Below, one piece after another: positions 3,086-34,300 of a stretch of DNA of 38,032 bases; the stretch's first letter is position 1; every line of letters starts with the position of its first letter. The position numbers were made by a program, and so were the translations under genes. The notes beneath the pieces are model-generated. The model did no database searches. It worked only from the letters and a program-made list of their open reading frames with translations, and was not told the DNA's origin. The stretch comes from Alloscardovia omnicolens DSM 21503 (GTDB lineage: Bacteria; Actinomycetota; Actinomycetes; Actinomycetales; Bifidobacteriaceae), in NCBI RefSeq assembly GCF_000420505.1, contig NZ_ATVB01000015.1, forward strand, positions 1-38,032. The letters run 5' to 3'.

Positions 3086-4765
3086 ATGGCTGAGTTTATT
3101 TATCAGATGATTAACGCTCGCAAGGCTTACGGCGATCGCGTGATTCTGGATAACGTCACCTTGAACTTCTTGCCTGGCGCAAAGATTGGTGTGGTAGGAC
3201 CTAACGGTATGGGTAAGTCCACACTGCTCAAGATTATGGCAGGCACCGAGAATCTTTCCAATGGTGAAGGCGGCATTACCCCTGGCTATACCGTGGGTAT
3301 TTTGCAGCAGGAGCCACCTCTGAATGAAGATAAAACCGTTATTGAAAACGTACGTTTGGCATATGGCGATTTGTATGCAAAACTGAAGCGTTTTAACGAT
3401 ATTGGTATTGAAATGGCTGATCCAGACGCTGATTTCGACGCTTTGATGGCTGAGATGGGCGCTCTGCAGGAAGAGATTGACGCCAAGAACGCATGGGATT
3501 TGGATAATCAGATTGAGCAGGCTATGGACGCTTTGCAGTGCCCTGACCCTGATTCGCCTGTAACTGTTCTGTCCGGTGGTGAGCGTCGCCGCGTTGCTTT
3601 GTGTAAGTTACTGCTCGAAGCTCCAGATTTGCTTCTGCTCGATGAGCCTACTAACCACTTGGACGCTGAGTCTATTTTGTGGCTGGAACAGTTCTTGCAC
3701 AACTATCAGGGCGCTGTTTTGGCTGTTACCCACGACCGCTACTTCCTCGATAATGTAGCTGAATGGATTTGCGAAGTTGATCGTGGTCAGCTCTTCCCTT
3801 ACAAGGGCAACTACACCACGTACTTGGAAACTAAAGCTAAGCGTTTGGAAGTTCAAGGTCAGAAAGACGCTAAACTTGCTAAGCGTTTGAAGAGCGAGTT
3901 GGAGTGGGTACGCACCTCTCCAAAGGGTCGTCAGGCGAAGAACAAGGCTCGTCTCGAACGTTACGATCAGATGGAGCAGGAAGCACGTAACTCTAAGAAG
4001 CTTGACTTCTCGGAGATTCAGATTCCACCAGGACCTCGTTTAGGTTCTACTGTTTTGGAAGCAAACCACTTGCATAAGGCGTTTGGCGATCGTGTGCTTA
4101 TTGATGATTTGAGCTTCACATTGCCTCGCAACGGCATTGTCGGCATTATTGGTCCTAACGGTGTGGGTAAGACCACTTTGTTTAAGACGATTGTCGGTTT
4201 GGAAGAGCTGACCAGCGGCGAGCTTAAGGTTGGCGAAACTGTGTCGATTTCTTATGTTGACCAGAATCGCGCCGGTTTGGATCCAAACAAAAACCTGTGG
4301 GAGGCTGTTTCTGATGGCCTTGACTATATCGAGGTGGGCGGAGTAGAAGTTCCAACCCGCGCGTATGTGGCCAGCTTCGGTTTTAAGGGTTCCGACCAGC
4401 AGAAGCTGACAGGCGTTCTGTCTGGTGGTGAACGCAACCGTTTGAATTTGGCTTTGACTTTGAAGCAGGGCGGCAACTTGCTGCTTCTCGATGAGCCTAC
4501 AAACGATTTGGATGTGGAAACTCTGGAAAGCTTGGAGAATGCTTTGGAATCATTCCCAGGTTGTGCAGTAGTTATTTCTCACGATCGTTGGTTCCTCGAT
4601 CGCGTTGCTACCCACATTTTGGCATGGGAAGGCGATGATGATAATCCTGCCAAGTGGTTCTGGTTCGAAGGTAACTTCCAAGCTTATCAGGAAAATAAGG
4701 TGGCTCGTTTGGGTGAAGAAGCATCCAAGCCTCATCGCATTCACCGTAAGCTGACGCGCGATTAA
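3086..4765 (+). CDS. ettA: ABC-F ATPase, energy-dependent translational throttle protein EttA
   Basis: Soluble ABC-F protein of 559 residues that binds the ribosomal E site and couples nucleotide state to translation elongation; it has no membrane segments. Two ATPase modules are complete: Walker A GPNGMGKST (38-46) and GPNGVGKTT (about 355-363), signatures LSGGERRRV (about 161) and LSGGERNRL (about 445), and Walker B boxes ending DEPTNHLD (about 185-192) and DEPTNDLD (about 467-474). The linker between the modules has the basic GRQAKNKARLERY stretch typical of EttA. Length and sequence follow E. coli EttA (555 residues) nearly throughout. It is monocistronic, with its own terminator downstream. 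The ribosome site before the ATG is weak (AGGACAT). It is unlikely to be a resistance-type ABC-F because of its close EttA match. Confidence 0.97.
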   Translation: MAEFIYQMINARKAYGDRVILDNVTLNFLPGAKIGVVGPNGMGKSTLLKIMAGTENLSNGEGGITPGYTVGILQQEPPLNEDKTVIENVRLAYGDLYAKLKRFNDIGIEMADPDADFDALMAEMGALQEEIDAKNAWDLDNQIEQAMDALQCPDPDSPVTVLSGGERRRVALCKLLLEAPDLLLLDEPTNHLDAESILWLEQFLHNYQGAVLAVTHDRYFLDNVAEWICEVDRGQLFPYKGNYTTYLETKAKRLEVQGQKDAKLAKRLKSELEWVRTSPKGRQAKNKARLERYDQMEQEARNSKKLDFSEIQIPPGPRLGSTVLEANHLHKAFGDRVLIDDLSFTLPRNGIVGIIGPNGVGKTTLFKTIVGLEELTSGELKVGETVSISYVDQNRAGLDPNKNLWEAVSDGLDYIEVGGVEVPTRAYVASFGFKGSDQQKLTGVLSGGERNRLNLALTLKQGGNLLLLDEPTNDLDVETLESLENALESFPGCAVVISHDRWFLDRVATHILAWEGDDDNPAKWFWFEGNFQAYQENKVARLGEEASKPHRIHRKLTRD

Positions 4766-4814: not shown

Positions 4815-4850
4815 TTCTTCTTCACATCTGCTCCACGAAAATCTCAGACT

Positions 4851-4965
4851 ATTTTCAGCTCTTCATGGAGTGTTGCTCAGCTTGCGCGCGTTATATATAC
4901 ATCACGCAAGGAAGAACAGCATATGGTTCCTCCCCAAGAAAACTAAATCCTCTCTTCTTCTCTCT
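4851..4965 (+). repeat. Non-coding element, copy A (imperfect direct repeat of 15908-16046)
   Basis: This segment can be aligned over about 115 nt with copy B downstream of the second GH3 gene. Shared blocks, in the same order, are TTATATAT, CATCA-GCAAGG, GAACA-CA, GTTC-TCCCCAAGAAAA and a C/U-rich run containing CTTCTTCT. Neither copy encodes protein. The two copies bracket the whole GH3/LytTR cassette in direct orientation. Confidence 0.65.
4873..4901 (+). promoter_or_regulatory. Promoter candidate of small RNA A
   Basis: TTGCTC (4873-4878), 17 nt, TATACA (4896-4901). The corresponding place in copy B has TTATTC, 17 nt, TATGAA, so both spacing and AT-rich -10 are conserved between the copies. 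A start near 4908 is predicted. Confidence 0.4.
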
Positions 4966-5030
4966 ATGCGATGATGTTACAGAGCTTGAAACCTTCACGG
5001 TACAGGCTGTGTAACATCATCGCTTTTGTG
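4908..5030 (+). ncRNA. Candidate small RNA A
   Basis: Inferred transcript of roughly 120 nt from the promoter candidate to a strong hairpin. The body has little secondary structure by eye and two pyrimidine stretches, TTCCTCCCC (4926-4934) and CCTCTCTTCTTCTCTC, which could pair with purine-rich Shine-Dalgarno regions, as C-rich loops do in Gram-positive small RNAs. The downstream gene is convergent, so this is not a leader. Existence of the RNA is an inference from conservation between copies plus promoter and terminator; an alternative is a structured DNA element. Confidence 0.4.
4968..5027 (+). terminator. Long hairpin with T-run ending candidate small RNA A
   Basis: GCGATGATGTTACA (4968-4981) pairs perfectly over 14 bp with 5010-5023. 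Inner pairing of AGCTTG with CAGGCT extends the stem. TTTTGTG follows. Confidence 0.6.
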
Positions 5031-5080
5031 TATGAGTAGTGTTTTGCTCTTGCGCGAGTATTGATACGTTCAAAAAACAA

Positions 5081-5177
5081 GGGAGGTTCTCAGACCTTCC
5101 GAGATGCTTTCCAAACATTGGAAACGTTCTGCCAACGTTTTGACTGAAAGCAAGTCACTTCTGTCTGAGAACCTCTC
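5081..5177 (-). terminator. Multi-hairpin element, probable terminator of the first GH3 gene
   Basis: A 13-bp perfect outer stem (5083-5095 with 5163-5175, extended to 15 by a wobble and a G-C pair) encloses further inverted repeats: TTTCCAA/TTGGAAA at 5108-5124, two AACGTT copies, and TGACT/AGTCA. Read on the minus strand it lies about 20 nt after the GH3 stop and is followed by TTGTTTTTTG, so it can end that transcript. The large interior is unusual for a simple terminator. Confidence 0.55.
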
Positions 5178-5195
5178 TTTTATAAATAGTTATGA

Positions 5196-8100
5196 CTATA
5201 CCGCTTTTTTAGCTGCTCGAGCCGCCGCTCGCGCTTCTTTGCGTTCCTTACGCTTAGCTTTTTTAAGAGCTTTACGAGCGTTTACCCTCTCCACAGTATG
5301 AGGCAGATGACGCCACACACTGAAGAAGAGCAGGAGCGCTGCAAGAAGATAGAATGCAACTCGTACTGCGCCAGTAATCTGCGCTAAACCATTATGATTT
5401 TTGAATACTGAACCTGGCATTGCACCATTCATAGCACGCGAGTTAGCTACCGTGTACAAGTATCGATGAGCCGCATCACGCGCATACGCATAGACTTGTG
5501 GATTGGTTAAATCTATGCTCTTTCCTGTTGGATCAGTAGCATTGAGCAGTTTAATATCAGCACCTGCTTCAATCATCTGCTCATTATCCATAAATACACC
5601 AGTATTTGCGTTATCGGTAATAATGGCACCACTAAAGCCCCATTCACCACGCACTACGCCGCTAATCAGAGCATAACTACCGCCAGTCCATGTTGCACCC
5701 ACACGGTTAAACGCAGTCATAATTCCGCGAGTAGCTCGGGATGTTGTTTCTGCATTCTCATATTTTCCGCCAGCAGTTTTCTTCACATATTTCACGGTAT
5801 TAGTGAGCTTGAGATTGTCTTCGAATGGCTTCATATAGATTTCGCGAGCAGACTGCTCATTCAACCATATAGCAATAGACATTTGCCCTACACCGTCACC
5901 ACGATGATTTTCTTGATCATTGAATGCGAAATGCTTCACGTATGTGTAGATGCCATTATCTGCAAGCACTTGAATTTCTGCTTGAGACATAAGAGAGGTC
6001 AGGATTGGATCTTCAGAATAATATTCGCCATTACGACCGGAATAAGGTGCACGATGAATATTCATCGACGGAGCATACATACCCGCTACCTTATCAAGCA
6101 ATGCTTCGTCAGACCGTAGCTGACCAAATTCCTTAGCTAACTCAGTGTTATAGGTTTGAGACAGCATCATAATATTCGGATAGTTATATCGAATAGCACC
6201 ATAAAGCCACGAGCTTGCAGAATCAGCTTCATAATTGAATGACGAATTAATCGAGTCAATTGCAGATACTCCATAGCCAGAATTACCAATCAGCTCTTTA
6301 TATTCTGCTTCTGTTAGCTGGTCTAGCAGATTTTCCCAAGCTTTATCGTCAAATTCCAAGCCACGCATTTCAATAAGAGTTTTACCATTTTTCTTACCAA
6401 AAACTGGTGTAGCGGTTTTCTTTTCCGTACGTCCAGAAGCGTGAGACTTCAGTTTCTTGAGTAATCCCTCAGATGCCTGCTTAGAGTAGGTATATGCTTT
6501 ACCATCTTTACCATTAATTTCATTACCCCACGTAGAAATCTTTGTGGAGGCTTCACCATCATGTGTTGGGAAAGTACCCTGCCAATCTTGACGAGTTAAA
6601 TAGGTAATATCGCCCGCAGCGGCATCAAGCTGATTTGTAATCTTTCGCCCCGTGACGTTATCAGTAGAATAAGTTACCGTATCCACATCCGTATTTTCTG
6701 GAGTATAGCTTGCCACAGTTGCTGCATTACCTTCAGCAGTCATTCCATCAGCAATACCCTTACCTGCGCGTGCAAGGAAGTTATTTGTTGCATCATGGGC
6801 ATTCTGAGCATCAGTAAATAAGTATTCACCAGCATCCAGAATATAAGTACGAGCACCCTTCGCATCATAAGCTTTAAGCAAGTCCTTCTTCACATCAATG
6901 TGAACAGTTTCAGATTCGCCAGGCTTAAGTTCCTTTGTTTTGGTAAAACCAACAAGTTGAGCAGCAGATTTCTCTACTCCATGAGCCTTATCATAATCAG
7001 TGTATGGAGATTGCATATAGACTTGAGCTACATCTTTACCAGCAACAGCACCCGTATTAGTCACAGTCACTGTAGCTTGTAAAGTCTGGTCATCTTTCTG
7101 AGACAGCGTAAAATTGCTATGCTCAAAAGAGGTATAGCTCAAACCATGACCAAATGGATATATCACTTGCTGATCGTACGTGTAATCACCAGCATTGCCT
7201 TGGTTCATAACCTTATCGAAATAACGGGTTTCATAATAGCGGTACCCTACATAAATGCCTTCTTTATAAGACACATAATTATAGTTCGTCCACTTGCCTG
7301 CTGAATCAACATACTCATAATCCCCAAAGTTCTGAGCAGCTGCGGATTGGGAAGCATCTACTTCAAAAGTATCTACCGTACGTCCGGAAGGATTAATCTC
7401 ACCTGAGAAAACTTTACCCACACCATCATTAAGGCTTTCAGCAAGAACTACTGCTTTAATGTGAGGGAAATCTTTGAGCCAGTCAAGCTGTAAAGCTGCG
7501 TTAGATTTTACTAATACAGTGACTGCATCAAAATGTTCATTCAAGTACGACAAAAGCTCCAATTCTGTAGAGTCAGGTTCGAGATACGACTTTTGTTTAT
7601 CTTCATCGCTCTTGGCATGGTTATACATAGATCGAGGCATATCTCGACCTTCGCCAGCCACACGAGACCATACAAATACTGGCATAGTTCCTTGAGCAGA
7701 ATCTAACAGATCTTTATGAGACTTGAGCATACTGAGTGGAACTTCGTTAATCGTAAAATCTTCCCGAGCGCCAAAACCAATCGACCCAGGACCTAAACCG
7801 TAGTTCTTCGTTTCATCTGAATTATAAAAATCCCATAAAGTGTTATTAACTTTAAAACCTGCAGACTCAAAGATTGTTTGCAGACTTCCTTGACCAGAAC
7901 CGCCAAGGAAAGATACCAGGGGAGTAAATATTCCCACATCCATTGCCTGCCGTGTTCCTGAATTGATAGAGAAGAAACTGACTTTCGTTCCCTTCTTCAT
8001 AGGCAAAGTATTATCATCATTTTTAAGCAATACTGTGCCTTCACCAGCAATACGGTTAGCTAAATCGTCTTCTGCTGCGCGAATATTTTCTTTAGTATGT

Positions 8101-8315
8101 TGCGCAGTGTAATAGTTGAGATTAACACCTGATGTATCTGCTCGGGAATTATCCACTGTGTGGCTATATAACCCCGCAATGCTTCCTACCATCTTATTGG
8201 AGAATCCACCAATCGCAGTTCCTGCTGCAAGAAAGCCTACAGCAGCTATTACAGATACCGTGGTCTTTACTATACGACCAACTCGTCCCGTACGACGAGA
8301 GCTATTTTTACTCAT
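5196..8315 (-). CDS. Membrane-anchored GH3-family glycosidase-like protein with permuted domains
   Basis: The 1039-residue protein belongs to glycoside hydrolase family 3 (beta-glucosidase-like), but its GH3 C-terminal sandwich comes first (about 85-320, with VAGEGRD at 219-225), then a fibronectin-III-like domain (about 385-500), then the catalytic barrel (about 650-930). Barrel motifs visible are NIHRAPYSGRNGEYYSEDP (752-770), KHFAFND (794-800) and GFSGAIITDN, whose Asp901 is at the nucleophile position. Transmembrane segments lie at about 17-38 and 981-1000, followed by a very basic Lys/Arg/Ala tail, so both ends are probably cytoplasmic and the enzyme faces outward. The DGPxGF substrate-binding motif found in the second copy is absent here, so activity may be altered or lost. 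The start has an AAGGAGGAG site. It lies 88 nt after a broken kinase gene and may be the last gene of that operon or have its own promoter. Confidence 0.88.
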   Translation of the reverse strand: MSKNSSRRTGRVGRIVKTTVSVIAAVGFLAAGTAIGGFSNKMVGSIAGLYSHTVDNSRADTSGVNLNYYTAQHTKENIRAAEDDLANRIAGEGTVLLKNDDNTLPMKKGTKVSFFSINSGTRQAMDVGIFTPLVSFLGGSGQGSLQTIFESAGFKVNNTLWDFYNSDETKNYGLGPGSIGFGAREDFTINEVPLSMLKSHKDLLDSAQGTMPVFVWSRVAGEGRDMPRSMYNHAKSDEDKQKSYLEPDSTELELLSYLNEHFDAVTVLVKSNAALQLDWLKDFPHIKAVVLAESLNDGVGKVFSGEINPSGRTVDTFEVDASQSAAAQNFGDYEYVDSAGKWTNYNYVSYKEGIYVGYRYYETRYFDKVMNQGNAGDYTYDQQVIYPFGHGLSYTSFEHSNFTLSQKDDQTLQATVTVTNTGAVAGKDVAQVYMQSPYTDYDKAHGVEKSAAQLVGFTKTKELKPGESETVHIDVKKDLLKAYDAKGARTYILDAGEYLFTDAQNAHDATNNFLARAGKGIADGMTAEGNAATVASYTPENTDVDTVTYSTDNVTGRKITNQLDAAAGDITYLTRQDWQGTFPTHDGEASTKISTWGNEINGKDGKAYTYSKQASEGLLKKLKSHASGRTEKKTATPVFGKKNGKTLIEMRGLEFDDKAWENLLDQLTEAEYKELIGNSGYGVSAIDSINSSFNYEADSASSWLYGAIRYNYPNIMMLSQTYNTELAKEFGQLRSDEALLDKVAGMYAPSMNIHRAPYSGRNGEYYSEDPILTSLMSQAEIQVLADNGIYTYVKHFAFNDQENHRGDGVGQMSIAIWLNEQSAREIYMKPFEDNLKLTNTVKYVKKTAGGKYENAETTSRATRGIMTAFNRVGATWTGGSYALISGVVRGEWGFSGAIITDNANTGVFMDNEQMIEAGADIKLLNATDPTGKSIDLTNPQVYAYARDAAHRYLYTVANSRAMNGAMPGSVFKNHNGLAQITGAVRVAFYLLAALLLFFSVWRHLPHTVERVNARKALKKAKRKERKEARAAARAAKKAV

Positions 8316-8340
8316 CTCTCCTCCTTCGATAGTGAGTGAT

Positions 8341-8352
8341 GAGTCTAGACTC
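8341..8352. promoter_or_regulatory. Perfect 12-bp palindrome upstream of the first GH3 gene
   Basis: GAGTCTAGACTC is self-complementary and, with one bulge, extends outward into GTGA/TCAC. It lies 26 nt upstream of the start codon. A regulator site is possible; no family assigned. Confidence 0.35.
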
Positions 8353-8366
8353 TCACATCTGCACTG
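8351..8366 (-). promoter_or_regulatory. Shared GH3 upstream motif, copy 1
   Basis: On the minus strand CAGTGCAGATGTGAGA matches 14 of 16 positions of CAGTGAAGATGTGATA ahead of the other GH3 gene, in the same orientation relative to the gene. With the preceding A it contains ACAGTGCAG, one mismatch from ACAGTTNAG, the repeat bound by the LytTR regulator AgrA. Confidence 0.4.
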
Positions 8367-8402
8367 TTATTCAAGGAAGATTTACGCCAGTTGTTTTTAA
8401 GA

Positions 8403-9795
8403 TTACGCGAATTGCAGAGGAAGGAGAATAGTGAGACTAAAGGTTTGGTTCTGCGTATTCACAGACATATGACCGCCGTATTGCTGCACAACATAGCGTA
8501 TTGAACGCATACCAAAACCATGCTCATAATTACCTGGTTTTGAAGTTTTTAACAGATTATCTGTATACTCACGTTCCCCACTAAATTGATTTATCTGCCG
8601 AATAACAGTCATACTTCCCTGTTTAGAAATATCTAATGTAATAGACTTACTTAAGGTATCGGTATCAATTTTTTCTACTGCCTCAATAGCATTATCCATA
8701 ATGTTTCCCACGAGAGAGTAGATATCCACGTATTCCATATGCCCCACTGCAGATCCATCAACTAAGCAATTGAGCGCAATACCTCGTTGAGAGCAATACA
8801 AGCTTTTCTCATTGAGAATAGCGTCAATAGCCTGATTACCTGTACTAAAGAGAGCATCATATTGGCTGAGTGTATCGTGAATAAGCTGTTCAGCTTGAGC
8901 ACCTTGTTTTTGTACTACTGACGTATTCGATAAGAAAAACTTTTTTAAATCATGCATCTTCATATTGATAACATCACGATATTCTTGACTTATCTCGTAA
9001 TGCCGTTGCTGTCTATAGTTAATATCCTTCATTATTTCGACTTCGCGCAACATGTGATTTCGTGATGATACCAAAAGGAGCATGCTCATTACCATGATGG
9101 AGCACACCATATCGTAGACACGCACCAGCAAGTTGAGATAATAATACCAATTATTTAAACCCTGAATAGCTACTGCGGGAATACCTAACATGAAGAAGAG
9201 GTGATTAGCAAAAATTACAAAAGCGAATACTGCTATGCACGCTAATATCCATCCGTGTCTATCGCGCAATACCTCAACTAATCTCTGCCGTGCGACCTAC
9301 TTTCCACCAGATAACCACTACACAGATTACGTAGATACAGAAAATGAGAGCCTTAGATTGTGGATTAGAATAGAGAAACTCCATATTACCTTGATAAATA
9401 GGTGCTCCTACAGCCTGCACTATATCTGCTATAGCATGTTCACATGAGTAACCCAAGGCTACACTAACAATAACTACTAATAGTGATGACTCTGTAAGAG
9501 CATTAATAGCAATAATGAGTACAATAAGCTCGACTAGCAAAGGAAAATAGCTAATCCCTTTAAGGTATATTCCTTCTGAATGATACAAAACCGGACCGTT
9601 AAGAACCATAGTGAGGAATAAAAATATACCAAGAAATACCCAACGCCATTCATACCCCGCCCATGGACGCCAACGGAGCGAACGAGAAAAAATAAGCGTG
9701 CATCCAAAAAGATACACAGTAAAAGTTGAAGGAAAAGAAGAAGTAAGCAAAGGTGCTGGCCACAGAAAAGCCCATATATTCTGTATAACTCCCAT
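8403..9795 (-). pseudogene. AgrC-like (GHKL) sensor histidine kinase, frameshifted
   Basis: Two adjacent frames form one kinase. The first (9795 to 9274, 173 codons) has several membrane helices and stops soon after VVIWWKVG. The second (to 8403) continues with ARQRLVEVLRDRHGW, two more helices, the HDLKKFF phosphoacceptor region, the N box NIMDNAIEAVE and the G box GFGMRSI. Removing one G of the GG at 9296-9297 joins them, and the join then aligns with the neighbouring kinase through this region. The first frame has a good GAGGAGAT ribosome site; the second would need an unsupported TTG start. It would sense a signal at the membrane and phosphorylate the LytTR regulator encoded just upstream. 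A sequencing error or phase-variable slip cannot be excluded. Confidence 0.8.
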
Positions 9796-9826
9796 CTTAA
9801 ATCTCCTCCCCGAGACTATATAGCTC

Positions 9827-10588
9827 TTATTTCAACATATGTGTGGCAGCAGACTTCACCGCCAGAAGCGCATCGAACACAGCCACTTTCTTTCCTCTGC
9901 TCATACCCACTGTATACGTTTTATCAGCTTCAATAATAAGTTCTTTATCAGTAAAGCCTGCGACAAAATGTAAATTCACTAAACAGTAACGGTGACATTG
10001 AACGAAATCTACTGGTTCAAGAAGAGCTGCATATTCTTTAAGAGTGCCCCACACCACATATACCGCACCATTGGCATCATGCACATACACCATATGATCT
10101 CGCACTTCTATATATGTAATATTCCGAGACGAAATAAAATGTGTTCCATCACTGGACGGCAAAGTAACCATCACATCGCGTGAATTCATTTCTACCCGAG
10201 CAAGAGCTCTCTTCATAGTTAAAGCAAAAGTAGCATAATCAAAAGGTTTAACCAGATAGCCAATCGCACTGACTTCGTAACCTTTAACAGCTAATTGCGT
10301 CACTTTCGTGGTAAAAATAATAGGCTTTGAGCCATGTTCTTCAAGCGTTTCGCGATAGACAGAAGCTGCTGTCATACCATCCATACCCGTGCCGTCTTCG
10401 CCAGGCATCTCGATATCGAGAAAAATCATATCCGCACTGCAAGCGCGCTCATCTGCTAGAAAATCTTCAGCCGATTTATAACGCTGTACTTCTATTCCCA
10501 CATTCTCACTGTGTGCAAAACGTTCTATAGCCTGCTGGGTATGAGCAGCATCAACGTCTGTATCCTCAACAAGCGCAATTTTTACCAC
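9827..10588 (-). CDS. LytTR-family response regulator
   Basis: DNA-binding response regulator of 253 residues. The receiver domain (about 3-125) has the acidic pocket (VEDTD near the N-terminus), phosphoacceptor Asp58 in FLDIEMPG, and the conserved Lys in LVKPF (about 117). A LytTR DNA-binding domain follows (about 145-245), with the family pattern FISSRNITYIEV and FVQCHRYCLVNL. A GTG start is chosen because AAGGAGG lies 6 nt before it; an upstream gene, the second kinase, ends 11 nt away. It sits between the two broken kinases, in the order regulator-kinase-regulator-kinase, and probably pairs with the kinase at 8403-9795. All receiver and DNA-binding features are intact, so it could act without its kinase or with cross-talk. 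Confidence 0.93.
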   Translation of the reverse strand: MVKIALVEDTDVDAAHTQQAIERFAHSENVGIEVQRYKSAEDFLADERACSADMIFLDIEMPGEDGTGMDGMTAASVYRETLEEHGSKPIIFTTKVTQLAVKGYEVSAIGYLVKPFDYATFALTMKRALARVEMNSRDVMVTLPSSDGTHFISSRNITYIEVRDHMVYVHDANGAVYVVWGTLKEYAALLEPVDFVQCHRYCLVNLHFVAGFTDKELIIEADKTYTVGMSRGKKVAVFDALLAVKSAATHMLK

Positions 10589-10599
10589 TGAAAACCTCC

Positions 10600-11970
10600 T
10601 TATCTCGGTATCGGAATAACCACACGAATCTCAAATACTTTCGTCTCGTTATCTGCTTCTACGTGCACATTTCCTTCGTAATCATGCGTTACCGCAGCAA
10701 TCGACTTCATACCAAAACCGTGAAAGCGCTGATTTGTTTTTTGTGATACTGGCAGACCTGTATCTTTAGATAACTGCACCTCGCCGGCATAAAAGTTTGA
10801 TGCTTCGATAATCGAGTAACCATTTATCACATGCGCTCTCAGTTCTATAGCGCGGTTAGCAGGGTGGAGATGAGGATTTTGCACAGCTTCAATAGCGTTA
10901 TCGAGAATATTACCGAAAAGAGCTGTTATCTCGGAAGGTTTCAAAAAACTAAAGCCATTACCATCAACCATTGCAGACAACGCAATATCATGAGCTGAGC
11001 AATACAGACTTTTTTCTGTAAGTACTGCGTCAATCATATCGTTTCCTGTTTGATAGATGGAGTCATACACACGAATAGCGTTTTCTAGCTCGTGCATAGA
11101 TTCAGTAGATACTTCAGATAACTGATTGTGTGTGCCATCGAGATTTTGAATTTAAGCACGTACGCTTGCTAAACCTTTTCGCACATCATGGAATTTAGCA
11201 TTCACTAGTTCCATATTTTCCCGACTCATATTGTAATGTTTCATTTTGGCTTCGTTCAGCTGAGTCAGTAAATCAATATCATTAATCAGACGATCTCGTG
11301 TGGACACCAAAAGTAGCACAGCCATTCCTAAAAGGGTACATAGGAAATCAAGAATACGGAAAGCAATATCTATCTGCCAAGGCATCACAACATGTTCTGG
11401 ACGCATGAGCAAGACCATATTAAATACAATGGCACATACTAATACAAAAACGCTTAATGCAACCCATCGTACAGATTGTTTTACAGCTTCAACCTGTACG
11501 TGAAAACGCTGAGCTAAGTATTGCACAGCGAACACATACATACCCGCGAGCACACATAATCTAAGAATAACATCCCATGGCGTAGGCATAGGAATGAAAA
11601 CCTGCACTGCTGAAGCTGCGGCAAAACCTAAATGTTGTAAACCGTACCCCATAACTGTATACAGCAAAGCTTCAATGCCAGATACATCATAGAGTTCGCG
11701 AACAATACCAGCAAGCAGACATGCGTATATCAAGTACAATAGGCACCGCATAGGGAAAACAAGTGAATTAAGTTGTTCAAAACTTACTACCAGCGCCCCA
11801 CCAATAATCGACACTGCAAAATACGCGCAAACAATCGAAGCAAACAACACTGTTGCTAGCAGTTTTGGTCGCCATCCTGCTTTAAGTAATGAATGCGGCG
11901 AAACAACCAGCACGGCAATCAAAGTTTCTATAGGAAAACTTAAAAATGAATAATCTACGACGAAATTCAT
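10600..11970 (-). pseudogene. AgrC-like (GHKL) sensor histidine kinase with an internal stop codon
   Basis: A single 457-codon frame interrupted by one TAA (11152-11154). Before the stop are about six membrane helices and the phosphoacceptor region KFHDVRKG (His about 261). After it, in the same frame, come the N box NILDNAIEAVQ and the G box GFGMKSI of the ATPase. The truncated product would have the His but no kinase domain. A restart at 11097 would have no good ribosome site. The ATG overlaps the stop of the upstream regulator (ATGA), typical of a coupled two-component pair. The rest of the reading frame has stayed open, so the lesion looks recent. A CAA- or GAA-type codon changed to TAA would explain it. 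Confidence 0.85.
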
Positions 11971-12671
11971 GCATTCCTCGCATGGAATTCGAGGAGTTTA
12001 TTCGAAATCTCTCGGCGGGCAGAACGCGACACGTGCAGTAAGGTGTCGTGCACCATAATGTCGCCGGACACCGGATCGTACTTGTTCACGTGTGCTAAAT
12101 TCACCACATTGTATCGGCTAATGAGGGCGAAATTCGAGTTCTCCACTTGCGTGAAAGCTGCTTTGAGGCTGTTCCATGCGGTGAGCACACCGTGTGCCGT
12201 GTAGTAGTAGAGTTTGTGGGACCGCACTTCCATATAGTAAATATCGGAGGTTTTTACGTAGAGGTTACCATCCGTTGTTTCGATAGCAATCTGCTCCACC
12301 ACGTGCGAGGAAACGATACGTTCGATTTTGCGCCAAGCGAGCGCGAAGCTTTCTGCAGAAATAGGCTTAACCAAGTAGCTGATTGCATCTACCTCGTAGC
12401 CTGCTACCGCATACTGTGCCATGCGCGTGGTAAAAACGATAACAACTTGTTGATCGTACTCACGGATAGCGCGCGCTGTTTCAAGACCATCAAGACCATG
12501 CATTTCTATATCCAGAAAAATGACATCGAAATCATGTTTATCTTTATACGCTTGAACAAACTCTGTTCCTGAACTAAAAATGATAGTGTTACTCGCAGCA
12601 TCACGAGACAACACTAATGTCTTAGTATCTTCAGCTTCTTGCATCACATCATCAATGATGGCTACGCGCAT
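11967..12671 (-). CDS. LytTR-family response regulator, first gene of the two-component operon
   Basis: A 234-residue regulator with receiver domain (IIDD at 5-8, phosphoacceptor Asp54 in IFLDIEMHG, Lys in LVKPI) and a C-terminal LytTR DNA-binding domain (about 130-230). The frame is open a further 31 codons upstream, but GAGGTGAG lies just before the ATG at 12671 and the receiver domain begins exactly there, so I take that start. The stop overlaps the start of the second kinase by ATGA. The gene heads the minus-strand operon and is divergent from the second GH3 gene; the shared region holds a LytTR-like direct repeat, so autoregulation and control of the GH3 gene are plausible. No signal-peptide gene of the agrD type is visible nearby. 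Confidence 0.93.
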   Translation of the reverse strand: MRVAIIDDVMQEAEDTKTLVLSRDAASNTIIFSSGTEFVQAYKDKHDFDVIFLDIEMHGLDGLETARAIREYDQQVVIVFTTRMAQYAVAGYEVDAISYLVKPISAESFALAWRKIERIVSSHVVEQIAIETTDGNLYVKTSDIYYMEVRSHKLYYYTAHGVLTAWNSLKAAFTQVENSNFALISRYNVVNLAHVNKYDPVSGDIMVHDTLLHVSRSARREISNKLLEFHARNA

Positions 12672-12742
12672 GTTCTCACCTCTATTCCTTATCCTCAACT
12701 TTACACGAGAGGCTAGGTGAACTAGAGCACAATGCGTCGTAA

Positions 12743-12772
12743 GCAATTCACGAAATACAGGCAACAGTTTAG
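12743..12772 (+). promoter_or_regulatory. LytTR-type direct repeat candidate in the divergent region
   Basis: ACAGTTTAG (12764-12772) is a perfect match to the AgrA-type repeat ACAGTTNAG. Exactly 21 nt upstream, GCAATTCAC (12743-12751) matches five of eight fixed positions. Paired 9-mers about two helical turns apart are the known LytTR arrangement. The site lies about 90 nt upstream of the second GH3 start and of the regulator operon start on the other side. Confidence 0.5.
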
Positions 12773-12824
12773 GAAATGCACCTCTCGTCCATTTGCTGCC
12801 CTACATACCATATGAATATCACTT

Positions 12825-12840
12825 CAGTGAAGATGTGATA
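12825..12840 (+). promoter_or_regulatory. Shared GH3 upstream motif, copy 2
   Basis: CAGTGAAGATGTGATA, 19 nt before the GH3 start, matches 14 of 16 positions upstream of the other GH3 gene. It contains a short palindrome, CTTCAGTGAAG, and is flanked by ATCAC/GTGAT. Confidence 0.4.
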
Positions 12841-12859
12841 AAAGATTAAAGGAGAGATC

Positions 12860-15847
12860 ATGACTAAGAAAGTTGTGAATGAACAGGTATCAAAGCCGAA
12901 GAAACAGCGCTTACCTATGCGTAACGGCTTCTTCCTGACTATTTGGATTCCTATTACTCTTATTTGCGCATTATTTGCCACTATTTTGTATGCTGGTTTG
13001 AATTTTGCCAGCGGCGCAATAGATGTTGCTGTGGGTGGAGGAACGTATACACCGAAGAACGGAAAGAACACGAAAGGCGCAGACCTCAACTTTTACCCGA
13101 AAAAGTATAAGAATATTAACGAAGCGATGGAAGCTTCAGGAAAAGTTACTCAAAAAATTGCTGATGAGGGCATGGTTCTGCTAAAGAACGATGGCAGCTT
13201 GCCTATGACTTCGCTAGGAAAAATCACTTTGATGGGACGTGGTGCAGCAGACCCTCTCTACGGTGGTACTGGATCAGGTCATACGAATACCGATACGGCT
13301 ATTAATATTAAAGCCGGTCTTGAAAAAGCTGGGTTTACAGTCAATCCTACGGTTTATAAGCAGCTCGACACCTACGCAAAATCCCATGCCGCTAAAGATG
13401 GCGGACGCATTAATATTAGCTTTACTTTTAGTGGTTCCACATATCGCATTGGCGAAATGCCAGTGTCTAAATATTCTGCTGCATCTACAAAGTCTTTTGC
13501 TCAATATAATGATGCCGCAGTTGTCGTTATTGGTCGTACAGGTGGCGAGGGCGAAGATTTAACCACCGATATGAGCAAGTGGGATGATAACTACACTCCT
13601 GGTCAGCATTCTTTGGAACTGAACAAGGATGAAAAAGACCAGATTGCTTTAGCAAAACAGAATTTTAAGAAGGTTATTGTTGTTGTAAATTCTTCTCAGC
13701 CAATTGAGATGGGTGAGCTGCAGGATGATCCTCAGATTAATGCAATTATTAACTCAGGAACTCCGGGCGCTACTGGTTTCTTATCTCTTGGAGAGATTAT
13801 TGCGGGTACGTTGAACCCTTCTGGTCACACAGTTGACACGTGGGCGCGCGATTTCACGAAGGATCCTACTTTCGTCAATATCGGTTCGAATGAGTACACA
13901 AACGCAGGTAAAATACGTTCCTTCTTTGTGAACTATGAAGAAGGTATTTATTCTGGCTACCGCTATTACGAAACTGCGGCTGCTGAAAACTTTATTAAGT
14001 ATGATGAGGCAGTTGTATATCCATTTGGTTATGGATTGTCTTATACCATTTTTGATTGGTCGAATCCTCGTTACACGGTAGATAGCAAGAAAGGTACTAT
14101 TACTGCTGAGGTTACCGTTACTAATACCGGTTCTGTGGCTGGTAAAGACGTGGTTGAACTCTTCTATTCCGCTCCTTATACCCACGGAGGTATTGAAAAG
14201 TCTGCAGTAGATTTGGGCGAGTTCGCTAAGACAAAGATGCTCAAGCCAGGCGAAAGCGACACTGTGAAAGCTACGGTAAAGATTGAAGATATGGCTTCGT
14301 ACGACTATAAGAACGCTAAAGCCTATGTTCTCGAAGCTGGTGACTACACCCTAAGCTTGCGCACAAACTCGCACACTATTAAAAACGGTGTAGATACCTT
14401 CACCTATAACGTTCCAGAAACGATTACATACTCTGGCAACAATCATCGTTCTAGTGATAAGAAAGCTGTAACCAATCAGTTTGATGAACTAAGTGCAGCT
14501 TTTGAGTCTGGACAGAAAACTCTCTTGTCTCGTGCCGATTTCGCAGGTACCTTCCCGCAAGTTCCTGATGATGCAGATAAAACTGCATCTGAGGAATTAC
14601 TCAAGAAATTAAATAATTTTGAAACGGATATTACGAATTCCGTAATAGCAAAGGCAGAGAAAGCAGATGGTAAAACAATCAGCATGCCAACAACGGGAGC
14701 AAAGAATAATATTCAGCTTTCCGAGCTGCGCGGTCTGCCATACGACGATCCAAAGTGGCAGAAGTTCCTCGACCAGCTCAAGGTGAGCGAGATGGTTGAC
14801 ATGATTGATGACGGAGCATATGCCACTGATGCCGTAACTCGCCTCGGCAAGCCTCGTGCGGTTGATTTCGATGGCCCTGCTGGTTTTAGCTCCTTTATTA
14901 GCAGTATTCATGGTTCTGCTTTCCCAACCGAAACTTTGATTGCTTCTACTTGGAATCGTGATTTAGCTGCACAGATGGGTGATGCCATTGGAGAAGAAGG
15001 CCTGCAGCTGGGTATTAATGGTTGGTATGCTCCAGCAGTAAATATTCACCGTAACCCATTTGCTGGCCGTAACTTTGAGTATTATTCAGAAGACCCTACA
15101 CTGTCCGGTAAACTCGCCTCTGCCGTAGCAAGTGCTGCTATGAACCGTGGTATTGTAGTCTTCCTTAAGCACTTTGCTTTGAATGATCAAGAACAAAACC
15201 GTCAGGCTAATGGTTTGGATACATGGGCAGATGAACAAACTATTCGCGAAATCTACCTCAAGCCTTTCGAAATTGCTGTGAAAGAATCTTCTGCTCAAGT
15301 CAAGTATCAAGCTGAAGATGGTTCTATTCAAACCAGCACTATCGGTTTAAACGGTATTATGAGCTCCTACAACCGTATTGGCGGCGTATGGGCTGGCGGC
15401 GATTGGCGTGTTCAAACAGCTGTGTTGCGCAACGAGTGGGGCTTCCAAGGCGCTGTTATTACCGATTTCGCTACGATTGCTTCCCCATACATGGTTCCTA
15501 TGCAAGGCGTGGCTGCTGGATCAGATATCCAACTGACATGGCGCATTTTCGAAAAGTTTAAGAATACAGATAATCCAGCGGCTGTATATTTCTTACGCAA
15601 AGCTGCTCACAATGTCATGTTTGCAACAGCCAACTCCAGCTCGCTTAATGGCTATGCATATGGAGCAGGCACAACATGGCATGCTCCTTGGTGGCGCTGG
15701 GTTCAGTGGATTGGTACTGCAGTATTTGTTGCACTCACCTTGTTCCTCATCTACTGGATGGTTAAACGAGTTCGTCGAGTAAGCCCTATTCGTAGAGCAT
15801 GGCGCGAACAGCGCAAAGCACTCAAGGCTGCTCGCAAGAATCAATAG
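12860..15847 (+). CDS. Membrane-anchored GH3-family glycosidase with permuted domains
   Basis: Second GH3-type protein (995 residues) with the same unusual order: sandwich domain first (about 95-330, with GGEGEDL at 228-234), fibronectin-III-like domain (about 390-500), catalytic barrel last (about 620-890). The barrel has DGPAGF (671-676), NIHRNPFAGRNFEYYSEDP (728-746), KHFALND (770-776) and GFQGAVITDF with Asp869 as the expected nucleophile, so it looks catalytically complete. Transmembrane segments at about 24-46 and 949-968 and a basic C-terminal tail imply both ends inside and the enzyme outside. The probable substrate is a beta-linked oligosaccharide; which one cannot be read. The start has AAAGGAGAG. 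It diverges from the LytTR operon and is clearly a distant paralogue of the 5196-8315 gene. Confidence 0.92.
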   Translation: MTKKVVNEQVSKPKKQRLPMRNGFFLTIWIPITLICALFATILYAGLNFASGAIDVAVGGGTYTPKNGKNTKGADLNFYPKKYKNINEAMEASGKVTQKIADEGMVLLKNDGSLPMTSLGKITLMGRGAADPLYGGTGSGHTNTDTAINIKAGLEKAGFTVNPTVYKQLDTYAKSHAAKDGGRINISFTFSGSTYRIGEMPVSKYSAASTKSFAQYNDAAVVVIGRTGGEGEDLTTDMSKWDDNYTPGQHSLELNKDEKDQIALAKQNFKKVIVVVNSSQPIEMGELQDDPQINAIINSGTPGATGFLSLGEIIAGTLNPSGHTVDTWARDFTKDPTFVNIGSNEYTNAGKIRSFFVNYEEGIYSGYRYYETAAAENFIKYDEAVVYPFGYGLSYTIFDWSNPRYTVDSKKGTITAEVTVTNTGSVAGKDVVELFYSAPYTHGGIEKSAVDLGEFAKTKMLKPGESDTVKATVKIEDMASYDYKNAKAYVLEAGDYTLSLRTNSHTIKNGVDTFTYNVPETITYSGNNHRSSDKKAVTNQFDELSAAFESGQKTLLSRADFAGTFPQVPDDADKTASEELLKKLNNFETDITNSVIAKAEKADGKTISMPTTGAKNNIQLSELRGLPYDDPKWQKFLDQLKVSEMVDMIDDGAYATDAVTRLGKPRAVDFDGPAGFSSFISSIHGSAFPTETLIASTWNRDLAAQMGDAIGEEGLQLGINGWYAPAVNIHRNPFAGRNFEYYSEDPTLSGKLASAVASAAMNRGIVVFLKHFALNDQEQNRQANGLDTWADEQTIREIYLKPFEIAVKESSAQVKYQAEDGSIQTSTIGLNGIMSSYNRIGGVWAGGDWRVQTAVLRNEWGFQGAVITDFATIASPYMVPMQGVAAGSDIQLTWRIFEKFKNTDNPAAVYFLRKAAHNVMFATANSSSLNGYAYGAGTTWHAPWWRWVQWIGTAVFVALTLFLIYWMVKRVRRVSPIRRAWREQRKALKAARKNQ

Positions 15848-15861
15848 AAGAATGAACTAAT

Positions 15862-15897
15862 GGTGTGGCTTTTACCCGTGCTGGCAAGAGCCACACC
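15862..15897 (+). terminator. Hairpin after the second GH3 gene
   Basis: GGTGTGGCT (15862-15870) pairs with AGCCACACC (15889-15897) 14 nt after the stop. The following TCATTCTC is a poor T-run, so termination may be partial. Confidence 0.5.
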
Positions 15898-15907
15898 TCA
15901 TTCTCAG

Positions 15908-16046
15908 GAATTTCTCAGCTTTCTTTGGGGGTGTTATTCAGGTTTATGCGGTTATATATGAACATCAAGCAAGGTTGAACAACACCAGCACTGAAGTTCT
16001 TCCCCAAGAAAATTGAACCCCTTCTTCTTTTCTCTCTTTCTCTTAT
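15908..16046 (+). repeat. Non-coding element, copy B (imperfect direct repeat of 4851-4965)
   Basis: Aligns with copy A through TTATATAT, CATCA-GCAAGG, GAACAACA, GTTCTTCCCCAAGAAAA and a long C/U run. It carries a few extra nucleotides relative to A. It lies between the second GH3 gene and tesB. Confidence 0.65.
15934..15962 (+). promoter_or_regulatory. Promoter candidate of small RNA B
   Basis: TTATTC (15934-15939), 17 nt, TATGAA (15957-15962), at the same place as the promoter candidate in copy A. Weak as a stand-alone match; support comes from conservation. Confidence 0.35.
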
Positions 16047-16089
16047 GAGTTCCTGTTGACTCCCCATGGAAGTCAACAGGAATTTTCAT
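15969..16089 (+). ncRNA. Candidate small RNA B or tesB leader
   Basis: Inferred transcript of about 115 nt, ending in a 12-bp hairpin with TTTT. It has the same TTCTTCCCC and CTTCTTCTTT-type single-stranded pyrimidine stretches as candidate A, but a different hairpin. Because tesB starts 30 nt beyond, read-through would make this a tesB leader, and the hairpin an attenuator. The RNA itself is inferred. Confidence 0.4.
16050..16086 (+). terminator. Terminator or attenuator hairpin upstream of tesB
   Basis: TTCCTGTTGACT (16050-16061) and AGTCAACAGGAA (16071-16082) form a perfect 12-bp stem with a 9-nt loop, followed by TTTTCATA. Confidence 0.6.
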
Positions 16090-16118: not shown

Positions 16119-17030
16119 ATGACGCGTATGACTGATTCTTCTCTTGATCACATTCTTTCTGTTCTATCTCTCGATACTGTTGAACGCGATGAGACGCATT
16201 CCGTTTTACGCGGCGAATCGCTCTATTTTCCAACCGGTCGCGTTTATGGAGGTCAAGTTATTGCTCAGTCTGTAATGGCTGCCAGCGCAACTGTAGATAA
16301 TCGTTTACCTCATTCTGTGCACGGCTACTTTATGAGTGCGGGAGATATTAAGCAAGACGTACGCTTTGATGTAGAAAATCTGCGTGATGGTCGCTCGTTT
16401 TCTAGCCGCCGCGTAAACGTTACTCAAGAACAAGGCGCGATTTTAACGGCTATTGCCAGCTTCCAAACTCCCGGTCAGGAGGGCGTGGATTTCGCTGACC
16501 CCATGCCGGCGGTCGTGCCAGATCCAGAAACTTTACCGAGCGCTAAACAGCTTATGGCTCCGTTTGCTGAACACTCTCCTTTTGCGCATTACTATGCCAC
16601 GCAATCGCCTTTCGATATTCGTCATGTTACGCCAAGTGTTCTTTTAGGACGACCGAGTACCTCCTCCTCTGAACCGCATAATCGCTCAGGCTTTCAGATG
16701 GTATGGATGAAGATTGACGGTGAAGTTCAGGTGGATCAAACCACTCATCGTGCTTTACTTGCCCTTGGTTGCGATCAGCTTATGCTTGAACCGATTTTCC
16801 GTCGAGCAGATTTAAGCTTAACCACTCCTGGTATGCATTTTGCAAGCTTAGATCATTCCATGTGGTGGTATCGCAATGTAGATATGAACGAATGGCATTT
16901 ATATGTGCAAGATACACCAACAGCAGCTCATGGACGTGGCTTAAGCCAAGCAAAAGTATACGATACACACGGCAATCTCGTAGCAGCAATGGTTCAAGAA
17001 GCTATGGTGCGCGTGCCAGAAAATAAATAA
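16119..17030 (+). CDS. tesB: Acyl-CoA thioesterase II
   Basis: Cytosolic thioesterase that hydrolyses acyl-CoA to free fatty acid and CoA. The 303 residues form a double hot-dog fold; the N-terminal half has VYGGQVIAQS and HSVHGYFMSAGD, and the C-terminal half has SLDHSMWW (Asp near 244), a Ser/Thr region at about 268-275, and AAMVQEAMV (Gln near 292), matching the Asp-Thr-Gln triad of E. coli TesB. The frame is open 21 codons further upstream to a TTG, but that part runs through the terminator hairpin; GCAGGAG lies 8 nt before the ATG at 16119, which I take as the start. It is monocistronic, with a hairpin on each side. Confidence 0.93.
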   Translation: MTRMTDSSLDHILSVLSLDTVERDETHSVLRGESLYFPTGRVYGGQVIAQSVMAASATVDNRLPHSVHGYFMSAGDIKQDVRFDVENLRDGRSFSSRRVNVTQEQGAILTAIASFQTPGQEGVDFADPMPAVVPDPETLPSAKQLMAPFAEHSPFAHYYATQSPFDIRHVTPSVLLGRPSTSSSEPHNRSGFQMVWMKIDGEVQVDQTTHRALLALGCDQLMLEPIFRRADLSLTTPGMHFASLDHSMWWYRNVDMNEWHLYVQDTPTAAHGRGLSQAKVYDTHGNLVAAMVQEAMVRVPENK

Positions 17031-31309: not shown

Positions 31310-34300
31310 CTAGGCGCGGCGGCGTAGTGTAGCGATAGCACCTGCAATCATGGCCATGAGGGCGATGCTTGCTAGAGCGATCACGTTTACACCGGTCTTA
31401 GCCAGTGGGCTCGACTTTGCAGTCTTACCTGTCTTGGTTGCAACCTGGCCGGTCTTGTCGTTGCGGTTAGGATTGGTTGGCTTGCCGTTATTGTACTTAC
31501 CGGTTACCTCGTCCCCATCGTTCACACCGTCATTATCGGTATCTGGGTTGGTTGGGTCGGTATTGCCTGGCTTGCCGTTTGGATCGAACTTATCGTCCTT
31601 AAACGGATTCTTAGAACCATCCACCTCATCCCCATCGGAGATGCCGTCTTTATCGGTGTCTGGGTTCTTTGGATCGGTGCCGTGCTTCTTCTCGTCACCA
31701 TCATTCAAACCATCATGATCGGTATCTGGGTTGGTTGGATCAGTACCATCCTTAATCTCAGTACCATCATCAACACCATCCTTATCCGTATCCTTCGAGT
31801 TAGGATCAGTCTTCGGATCAGTCTGGCTTGGATCATCAACAGTCTTGCCGTTCTCATCGACCTTCGTGTTGAGTTCGTCACCATCCTTCACACCATCACC
31901 ATCAGAATCAGGGTTGGTTGGATCCGTGTTACCTGGCTTGCCATTTGGATCAGACTTATGATCCTTAAACGGATTCTTATCACCAGAAACTTCATCACCA
32001 TCGTTAACCCCGTCCTTATCGGTATCTGGATCAAGAGGGTTAGTACCGTGCTTCTTCTCGTCACCATCATTCAGACCATCGCCATCAGTATCAGGATTCT
32101 TAGGATCAGTTCCATCCTTCTTTTCCTGATCATCAGGGACACCGTCATTATCATCATCGTTATCCGTGATGTCTGGAGTACCGTCACCGTCAGTATCCAA
32201 CTGGAACTTAGCGTTCGCATTATCAGTGACAGCGCCAGAATCAGCAGGATAGGTTACGACAACCGGAACAGTAATCTGCTCGGCGTCGGCACCATCCTTA
32301 CCAGCAGGCACCACGGTCACACTAATCTCGCCAGTAGAAGGATTGATGCTTACGGCGTAACCCTGAGGAGCCGTGAACTTAGGATCAATAGCGAACTTCG
32401 TACCTGTTGGATACTCGTCACCCGTATTCGTTGGCTTCACACTCGTGGTAGCGCCCGCCTTCACGATGGTGTCTGCATAGCTAGGCTCAGGATCGAGAAC
32501 CTTATCAGGAGACTGAACCGTCACCTTCACAGGAACTTCGTCCTTCGAACCATCAGGATAGGTGACCGTCACTGTCTCTTCAATAACAGTGCCAGGGGTA
32601 GCCTTGTCATCAATCTGAACTGTTACTACACCAGCGTTTGGATCAACGGTTACAGGCGAATCCTTAGGAACCGAGAACTTCGTACCCTCAGGCAGATTCT
32701 TATCACCCGTTTGAGAAACCTTCACCGTCTCACCAGGCTTACCCTTACCCGGCTCATAGCTTGGATCATGCTCAGTGTTCTGCTTCGGTTTGTCCACAAC
32801 AGTTACAACAGTATTGATTGTTTCTGTTGTGCCATCTGGGTAGGTGACCAACACATTGACCTTGTATGGCGTGGTGGCCTTCACTTCTGGAGCGGTACCC
32901 GAGAAGGAACCGTCTGCATTGAAGGTTGGATTATCCAAACCAGCAGGAGCCGTGTTCACGAACTTGAAGGTCGTACCAGAAGGAACAGCAGGATCAGAGG
33001 TTGGTGCAGCAACCGTGTAATCATTGAGCTCAACAACCGTTACCGGCTTATACGTTGGCTGGTACAGATCCTTATCGTCCTTCTTGACTACCGTCACCTT
33101 CACAGGTACTTCGTCCTTGGAACCATCAGGATAGGTTACCGTAACCATTGTCTTGATTTCATCGCCAGGCTTAGCCTTGTCATCAACCTGAACGGTTACT
33201 TCACCAGTGTTTGGATCAACCGTTACAGGAGAACCGCCAGGAACAGAGAACTTCGTACCCTCAGGCAGATTCTTATCACCCGTCTGAGGAACCTTCACAG
33301 TCTCACCAGGCTTACCAGTCTTGTCCTCATAAGAAGGATTATGAGTCTGAGCATCGGCTGGAGCATTCTTCACCTTAATCACAGCGTCGATAGTTTCCGA
33401 GGACTTATCCGGATAGGTCACCTTCACCTTAACGGTGTAGGTTGTATCCTTGTCAACGCTTGGAGCAGTACCAGTAATAGCACCGTCAGCACCAATCTGG
33501 AGACCAGTCAAACCAGCAGCATCTTCGATAGCGAAGGTGGTCTTCGCTGGCACAGCAGGAGTGGACACAGGAGCAGCAACCTTAATCGCAGCACCTTCGT
33601 TTACCTCGATAGCTGTGTAAGCAGGCTGATACACATTTTTATTAGGATCATTTGGATCAGTCTTCGGATCAGTCTGAGACGGATCGTCAACAGTCTTGCC
33701 GTTGTCGTCGACCTTCTTGTTGAGTTCCTCGCCATCCTTCTTACCATCACCATCAGAATCAGGATTCAACGGATCCGTGTTACCTGGCTTGCCATTTGGA
33801 TCAGACTTATGATCCTTAAACGGATTCTTCGAACCGTTTACCTCGTCGCCATCGTTGACGCCATCCTTATCGGTATCAGGATCAAGAGGGTTGGTACCGT
33901 GATCTTTCTCTTCCTTATCAGTCAGACCATCGCCATCAGTATCAGGATTCTTAGGATCAGTGCCGTCCTTCTTCTCGTCCTCGTCCTTGATGCCGTCGTT
34001 ATCATCGTCGTCATCCTTGATATCTGGAGTACCATCACCATCAGTATCAAGCAAGAACTTAGCGTTCACATTATCGGTCACAGCACCAGAATCAGAAGGA
34101 TAGGTTACGACAACCGGAACAGTAATCTGTTCGGCGTCTGCACCATCCTTACCAGCAGGAGCAACCGTCACACTAATCTCACCAGTGTTCTGGTCGATAG
34201 TTACGGTATAACCCTTCGGAGCCGTGAAGTCCTTATCAATAGCGAACTTCGTATTAGAAGGATACGCATCACCCGTATTCGTTGGCTTCACCTTGGTGGT

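Follow-up and report, generated by a model that had tools for sequence, protein, structure and literature searches.

Two non-coding segments in a 38,032-nt stretch of Alloscardovia omnicolens DSM 21503 (NZ_ATVB01000015.1, positions 1 to 38,032; the window) appear, from sequence comparison, to be paralogues that each encode a stand-alone small RNA (sRNA) of about 100-130 nt; the gene family to which they belong is spread across the Bifidobacteriaceae and apparently has no name so far. They lie on either side of a block of GH3, GHKL and LytTR genes between ettA and tesB, and they share the anatomy of the family: a phased promoter, usually two 5′ hairpins with compensated changes, an unpaired AUAAYUGAACCC and C/U tract, and a terminator that differs between paralogues. 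One regulator box is shared by the sRNA promoters and the gene of a PhoP-type regulator. We lean towards reading the family as PhoP-activated sRNAs that act in trans by pairing with specific mRNAs; the main rival is a protein sponge. The transcribed parts probably start near 4904 and 15965, judging from the position of the -10 elements, and the two copies are composed as follows.

4842-5027, plus strand: copy 1, whole non-coding segment on the ettA side of the block
4842-4847 (TCTCAG), 4853-4858 (TTTCAG) and 4876-4880 (CTCAG), plus strand: putative PhoP half-sites of copy 1, at near-constant distance to TTATAT across copies
4891-4897, plus strand: -10 element TTATATA of copy 1, from promoter comparison
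4904-5027, plus strand: predicted small RNA of copy 1, with an approximate 5′ end set from the -10 position
4932-4965, plus strand: conserved core CCCCAAGAAAACUAAAUCC and pyrimidine tract of copy 1, from core pattern comparison
4968-5027, plus strand: intrinsic terminator of copy 1, a 14-bp outer stem, then TTTT
15902-16086, plus strand: copy 2, whole non-coding segment on the tesB side of the block
15902-15907 (TCTCAG), 15913-15918 (TCTCAG) and 15937-15941 (TTCAG), plus strand: putative PhoP half-sites of copy 2, from promoter comparison
15952-15958, plus strand: -10 element TTATATA of copy 2, from promoter comparison
15965-16086, plus strand: predicted small RNA of copy 2, with an approximate 5′ end set from the -10 position
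16002-16044, plus strand: conserved core CCCCAAGAAAAUUGAACCC and pyrimidine tract of copy 2, from core pattern comparison
16050-16086, plus strand: intrinsic terminator of copy 2, a 12-bp stem, then TTTT

An earlier reading made from the letters of the window (the sequence-only reading) had described blocks common to both segments in the same order, and had proposed comparison with shuffled sequence as a check. The local alignment score of copy 1 against copy 2 was 76, above all of 1000 dinucleotide shuffles (maximum 29), and the body alone, with the promoter excluded, scored 45 (maximum 29 in shuffles); the ordered blocks are borne out. Each segment does end, as had been noted, in a strong hairpin followed by TTTT. 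That the hairpins are unrelated holds between the two window copies, but the terminator of copy 2 resembles and agrees with that of the pre-tesB copy in a sister species (G003).

When copy 1 was used as a query against its own genome (G000; 1.85 Mb in 43 contigs, of which the window is contig 15), copy 2 was recovered at E 9e-8 together with copies on contig 5 (E 1.8e-10, 4e-9 and 2.5e-5), all other rows being at chance level. The core pattern matched this genome five times at 0-1 mismatch, all in forward orientation, and once at 3 mismatches, while its reversed control gave no matches there at the same 0-1 mismatch. Model R2, described below, added a sixth copy (contig 4:105492, E 1.5e-9) and, at E 0.036, a weak candidate for a seventh. 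By sequence, the genome holds at least six family copies. One of them, at contig 5:27206 (L009:3158-3268), has no promoter block, adjoins a PIN-domain gene and is probably decayed; a sister-species copy with a similar terminator keeps its promoter (L156:7277).

Outside this genome, a strict-pattern scan of named genomes gave no matches, and a relaxed pattern found real copies in Alloscardovia theropitheci and A. macacae, along with one match in a WOR-3 metagenome-assembled genome that we take as chance. Copies occur in all five Alloscardovia genomes examined. In the Bifidobacteriaceae, 155 of 189 genomes had a match at E<=0.1 to model R1, built from 12 Alloscardovia sequences using sequence only; at this threshold up to about 19 genomes are expected by chance. 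The R1 matches that were retrieved show the same architecture as the Alloscardovia copies. For model R2 (33 sequences from 27 genomes) a structured covariance model was attempted and abandoned, and sequence alone was kept because RNAalifold gave no pair on the 33-sequence alignment. R2 matched 167/189 genomes at E<=0.01, including 153/161 of those of good quality, with 1 to 11 matches per matched genome (at least two in 164, a single one in three). Twenty-seven genomes supplied sequences to R2; among the remaining 162, matches in 140 count as independent finds, and the genomes listed without a match are mostly small or incomplete. The R1 and R2 counts are of model matches, and inspection covered those that were retrieved. 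As a class-wide control, 147 other genomes sampled from the class gave no R2 matches, the own genome alone being matched. The search across Bifidobacteriaceae that had been suggested for this family was thereby carried out with a sequence-only model, and the family-wide matches, with the terminator comparison, support the proposal of a small-RNA family with a conserved body and exchangeable terminators.

Neither the window nor 8 Alloscardovia loci gave a match at the gathering score of any Rfam 15 family, among them the 6C RNA of Actinobacteria with its C-rich segments. At permissive E-values, the 601-base stretch around copy 1 gave six sub-threshold matches, four of them to microRNA families over the terminator hairpin, and 20 further loci searched at E<=0.05 gave one, which lies outside the RNA (L145:108-188, minus strand); we take all of these as chance. 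Searches of open-licence literature, mostly at listing level, on bifidobacterial sRNA families and on the bifidobacterial PhoP system found no description of the family. We do not claim a link to IGR-392 of B. animalis, for which PMC4338058 gives a 4.12-fold figure on acid treatment; both copies in G171 have other neighbours.

To describe the RNA itself we worked from 115 retrieved matches, of which 100 could be parsed from the -10 element and 50 of these were nonredundant and short; one match without the core motif was left out of one tally. In 108 of all 115 copies a T-run follows a terminator stem of 7 bp or longer, compared with 10-18 in ten shuffles. Twenty-eight of the 50 short sequences were folded, with the main Alloscardovia loci excluded, and single folds of many members show two 5′ hairpins. 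Alignment A5 comprises 22 of the 28; L060, L105, L119, L161, L163 and L168 were taken out manually because their 5′ parts were longer or of another kind, and row L100 is a Bifidobacterium-type copy of A. theropitheci. RNAalifold found 10 pairs on A5, 8 of them with double changes. In its two helices 92.1% of cells are paired, and helix covariation is 0.511, as against 0.263 (sd 0.027) for shuffled alignments and at most 0.160 for slid partners. In single folds of 100 RNAs the positions of AxAAYU were on average 0.60-0.86 unpaired, those of xAA 0.39-0.57 and those of the tract 0.63-0.87.

The core could in principle encode rather than pair. In the own genome it can be read as CCC CAA GAA AAY TRA, the end (...PQEN stop) of a small peptide, and the codon sites that vary among its five core copies fall on TAA/TGA and on a synonymous position of Asn. 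In G001, G002 and G004, however, copies have lost the stop (YTTA); family-wide, 18/64 copies have something other than A or G at position 6; no common start codon was seen by eye; and the helices show compensatory changes. With the stop not conserved across copies we rejected this frame, and short ORF genes seem hardly credible as an account of the family.

The promoter had been described as a promoter-like pair with 17-nt spacing; it is better read as TTATAT with CAG half-sites upstream than as a -35/-10 pair. In Bifidobacterium-type promoters (62 nonredundant ones, including the A. macacae copy L101) these half-sites end at -44, -33 and -11 relative to TTATAT, with A at -12 in 62/62 and G at -11 in 60/62; in the 17 promoters of the main Alloscardovia type they end at -45, -34 and -11. 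The 17 plus 62 promoters were drawn from 91. CAG-N8-CAG, a pitch of 11 bp, occurs in 47 of 76 nonredundant promoters (from 92), against a shuffled mean of 0.75, and pitches of 10 and 12 occur in 14 and 11 of them.

The same box stands directly before a response regulator gene (L079/L175) whose product has receiver (Response_reg) and winged-helix (Trans_reg_C) domains; a HisKA/HAMP kinase gene lies next to it. The best PDB matches of the regulator are Mycobacterium tuberculosis (Mtb) PhoP, at E 4.4e-82 over residues 5-242, and full-length similarity, domains and base-contacting helix identify the gene, at the level of sequence, as PhoP, an OmpR-family regulator of the Mtb type. A search of 61 genomes matched 53, and the results for phoP that follow refer to the best 30 of those 53. 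Within 110 nt upstream of phoP, CAG-N8-CAG is present in 27/30 loci, and no other pitch exceeds 2; the controls gave 0/30 in a coding stretch, 1/30 backwards and 0 on the reverse complement. The recognition helix GGDAAIVESYISYLRKK is identical in 30/30 regulators and keeps four of the six base-contacting residues of Mtb PhoP (E215, S216, Y217, Y220), V213 being replaced by I and N212 by A. According to PMC4832192, the repeats bound by Mtb PhoP are 7 bp long and strictly 4 bp apart, which again makes an 11-bp pitch, and N212 contacts, among others, A6, the third base of TCACAGC. Here the third box base is mostly T or C (TCTCAGC as against TCACAGC), and the paired change of residue and base is suggestive, not proof.

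Could the sRNA family be correctly described, and its controller be another OmpR-family regulator? Direct repeats with a pitch of about 11 bp are typical of the whole OmpR family, the TTTAAG-N5-TTTAAG of CiaR being a further case, and the box is found here at other genes as well, including one for an ANTAR response regulator. We nonetheless consider a different controller unlikely: the box is at phoP itself, and at one pitch only; TCTCAGC resembles the Mtb repeat; and the sRNA tracks close PhoP. The 61 genomes searched divide into 43 in which PhoP is close (E below 1e-90) and 18 in which it is distant or absent; R2 matches occur in 40/43 of the former and 0/18 of the latter, with G012 and G026 assigned in this tally by elimination. 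Inspection of 29 box sites in the own genome returned the two window promoters, many sites inside genes and a few directly before genes. Among these genes are one for a trypsin-like (HtrA-type) protease (TTTCAGGTTATTCTCAG, L093:1500-3017 on contig 14), possibly a member of the same regulon, and that for the ANTAR regulator, with an TCTCAGTAACTTCCCAGT box close to its start (L094:1500-2204 on contig 21).

We infer a mechanism in several steps. A PhoP-type response regulator, whose own gene carries the box, would bind the CAG repeats and activate transcription of the sRNAs, presumably under envelope- or acid-type stress. The RNA would act in trans through its unpaired segment. This would most likely pair with G/A-rich leader regions of mRNAs, limited in number, whose translation would thereby be repressed; the 5′ hairpins and terminator would protect the RNA. 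Multiple copies would raise dosage and allow terminators and 5′ hairpins to drift.

Across 64 nonredundant copies C and U make up 98% of the tract, and a run of 14 positions (11-24) is free of purines; TTCTTC is found in 53 copies (15.4 expected) and CTCTC in 57 (20.6 expected), whereas CCUCC, the word complementary to Shine-Dalgarno (SD) sequences, is found in 0/64 (16.6 expected). Four tracts were paired with 55 predicted start regions (from the window, L009, L010 and L306), with 60 shuffles per tract. Start regions pair better than coding interiors (-10.5 against -7.9 kcal/mol for copy 2), and all four tracts have their best site at the start of a 173-aa ORF at 9274-9795. The AAGGAGGAGAG of the first GH3 gene, which had been offered as an example of a target, is among the six best of the 55 for the four tracts, but other strong SD sequences do likewise. 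Target prediction at start regions, also proposed earlier, did not favour the real tracts over shuffled ones, and the idea that the pyrimidine stretches generically cover SD sequences is not supported. The absence of CCUCC and the result with shuffled tracts together make these RNAs unlike generic SD blockers, so that specific targets or a protein partner are needed. Pairing of UUGAACCC with the complementary tRNA T-arm sequence GGGUUCAA was also considered, and dropped when several Alloscardovia copies were seen to read UUAAUCC.

A number of results weigh against PhoP-activated, mRNA-pairing sRNAs. In the pairing test, the four real tracts were equalled or surpassed by shuffled ones in 54, 60, 56 and 51 of 60 shuffles. 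The complement of the core has 23 matches in the own genome, two of them sRNA copies, as against 30 for the reversed control; patterns for long target sites, run on the own genome and on 41 others of the family, hit sRNA copies and various other scattered places, and no repeated target was recognised among 21 inspected matches. The CAG box is not exclusive to the sRNAs, doubled TCAG giving 29 loose matches in the own genome as against 8 reversed. Three genomes of genus g10 (G013, G026, G210) have a close PhoP and no sRNA match; both inspected phoP loci of that genus (L191 of G013, L193 of G210) carry the CAG-N8-CAG box, and secondary loss is possible there. G208, which has a distant PhoP, gave a weak R1 match (E 0.043), and the co-absence of PhoP and sRNA is confounded with genome reduction. 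As to structure, the count of double-change pairs is by itself not beyond shuffles (58/500 reach it), RNAalifold found no consensus pairs on the 33-sequence alignment A6 (33 of 40, seven long sequences excluded), the 5′ part of the main Alloscardovia type is unlike the two-hairpin form, and fold scores of single Alloscardovia RNAs are unremarkable in 6/9 (z -0.4 to -2.5).

Some of this would suit a protein-binding RNA, in which the YC-rich tract sequesters a pyrimidine binder (Rho, a cold-shock protein or a KH-domain protein) and the induced copies form a sponge. Rho prefers YC; the composition of the tract, with its missing CCUCC, fits such a partner, multiple copies provide dosage, and in pairing with start regions the real tract has no advantage over its shuffled versions. 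A pyrimidine binder leaves unexplained, however, the A-rich AxAAYUxAA part, which is conserved at least as strongly as the tract in the 64 copies, and there is one tract per RNA, whereas known sponges carry many sites. We regard a sponge as a minority prospect. We are similarly doubtful, without dismissing it, of a PhoP-induced multicopy regulon that dispenses with anti-SD pairing and in which AUAAYUGAACCC and the YUC tract form a new recognition element, bound by a dedicated RNA-binding protein or acting as a Rho or cold-shock-protein sponge.

PhoP-activated sRNAs of the kind we favour would be analogous to three described systems. Streptococcal csRNAs depend on CiaRH, occur in several copies behind TTTAAG-N5-TTTAAG, and carry anti-SD and mostly CAU motifs (PMC3091779). 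They resemble the present family in having several similar copies per genome, response-regulator direct repeats at an 11-bp pitch, a conserved unpaired segment between hairpins, and a terminator. They belong to another phylum, and differ in that the repeats here are of YYCAG type, not NTTAAG-N5-TTTAAG, and that AUAAYUGAACCC and the YUC tract take the place of anti-SD words. LhrC1-5 of Listeria are five CU-rich, two-component-system-dependent copies with UCCC-containing motifs in three places (PMC4132741). Multiple CU-rich copies with stem-loop, single-stranded stretch and terminator are common to both, dependence on a regulator being predicted here; the redundant UCCC of LhrC (loop A, single strand and terminator loop) is unlike our family, where UCCC lies near the core in 63/115 copies and one tract is recognised per RNA. 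Mcr7 of M. tuberculosis is a PhoP-dependent sRNA proposed to mask a ribosome-binding site (PMC4038636). The likeness, an actinobacterial sRNA under PhoP (predicted here), is one of description, and Mcr7 differs as a single RNA with a 33-nt loop as pairing region.

Regulatory RNA has received little study in bifidobacteria, a lineage not known to possess Hfq. The family, present in most genomes searched and tied through its promoters to one conserved two-component system, offers a definite point of entry to stress regulation in bacteria that are dominant in the infant gut or used as probiotics. It opens a layer of gene control that is scarcely explored among common gut bacteria, and it provides a test of sRNA action without Hfq. 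If the PhoP reading is true, the PhoP-sRNA link of Mcr7 would extend to a second actinobacterial family. Of earlier studies, one on B. breve lists housekeeping RNAs and riboswitches (PMC5746004) and one on B. animalis predicts eleven intergenic sRNAs (PMC4338058). Mtb PhoR is described as sensing acidic pH (PMC10723718), which suggests acid as a candidate inducing condition.

The neighbours of the copies vary (GH2, GH1/TetR, PIN, tesB, metG/tatD, dcd). Forty-four loci around copies span about 3 kb or more; 24 of them contain dcd, the gene for dCTP deaminase, and 10 contain metG. The latter come from three Alloscardovia genomes, one genome of genus g13 and six of g15, and the metG position, common to three genera, is therefore old. 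A cis-acting leader or attenuator of the downstream gene would fit copy 2, which closely precedes tesB in the same orientation and has pre-tesB counterparts in G001, G002 and G003, and also the sixth copy, on contig 4, between metG and a co-directional TatD-family gene. At 4/5 core copies of the own genome the downstream gene is convergent, however, and neighbours differ from copy to copy; a role in cis seems very improbable.

The surroundings of the two window copies consist of the following features.

3086-4765, plus strand: ettA-type ABC ATPase gene, adjoining the inserted block on the left
5196-15847: GH3/GHKL/LytTR block, outside the sRNA family, from gene and domain comparison
16119-17030, plus strand: tesB-type acyl-CoA thioesterase gene, adjoining the block on the right

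The block encodes two LytTR regulators, two proteins with GHKL domains and two GH3 proteins; in each GH3 protein the Pfam GH3 C-terminal domain comes ahead of the N-terminal one. It had been suggested that this 11-kb block was inserted between ettA and tesB, with a check of their adjacency in relatives. The check was run: the two genes are adjacent in G023, G061 and G171, from three other genera, and a GH3/GHKL/LytTR/GH3 block separates them in G001, G002 and G003 as in the window, that is in 4/5 Alloscardovia genomes, but G004 has the LytTR/GHKL part alone. As far as eight genomes show, the block looks like an insert of the Alloscardovia lineage. The further suggestion that the elements arrived or were duplicated with the block did not survive. 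The site-1 copy is present in G000 and G001 only, the pre-tesB copy in G000, G001, G002 and G003, and G001 has one more copy after its second GH3 gene. Differing occupancy and family-wide, genome-wide spread indicate dispersed family members near the block, not its duplicated ends.

The site-1 copy of G001 (L158:5186-5343) has a tandem pair of core-like blocks. In a sister species another sRNA copy has a second GH3/LytTR set beside it (L157:11408-16210). Elsewhere in the window, at 31310-37072, a 1920-aa minus-strand ORF contains a 1039-aa open frame on the opposite strand.

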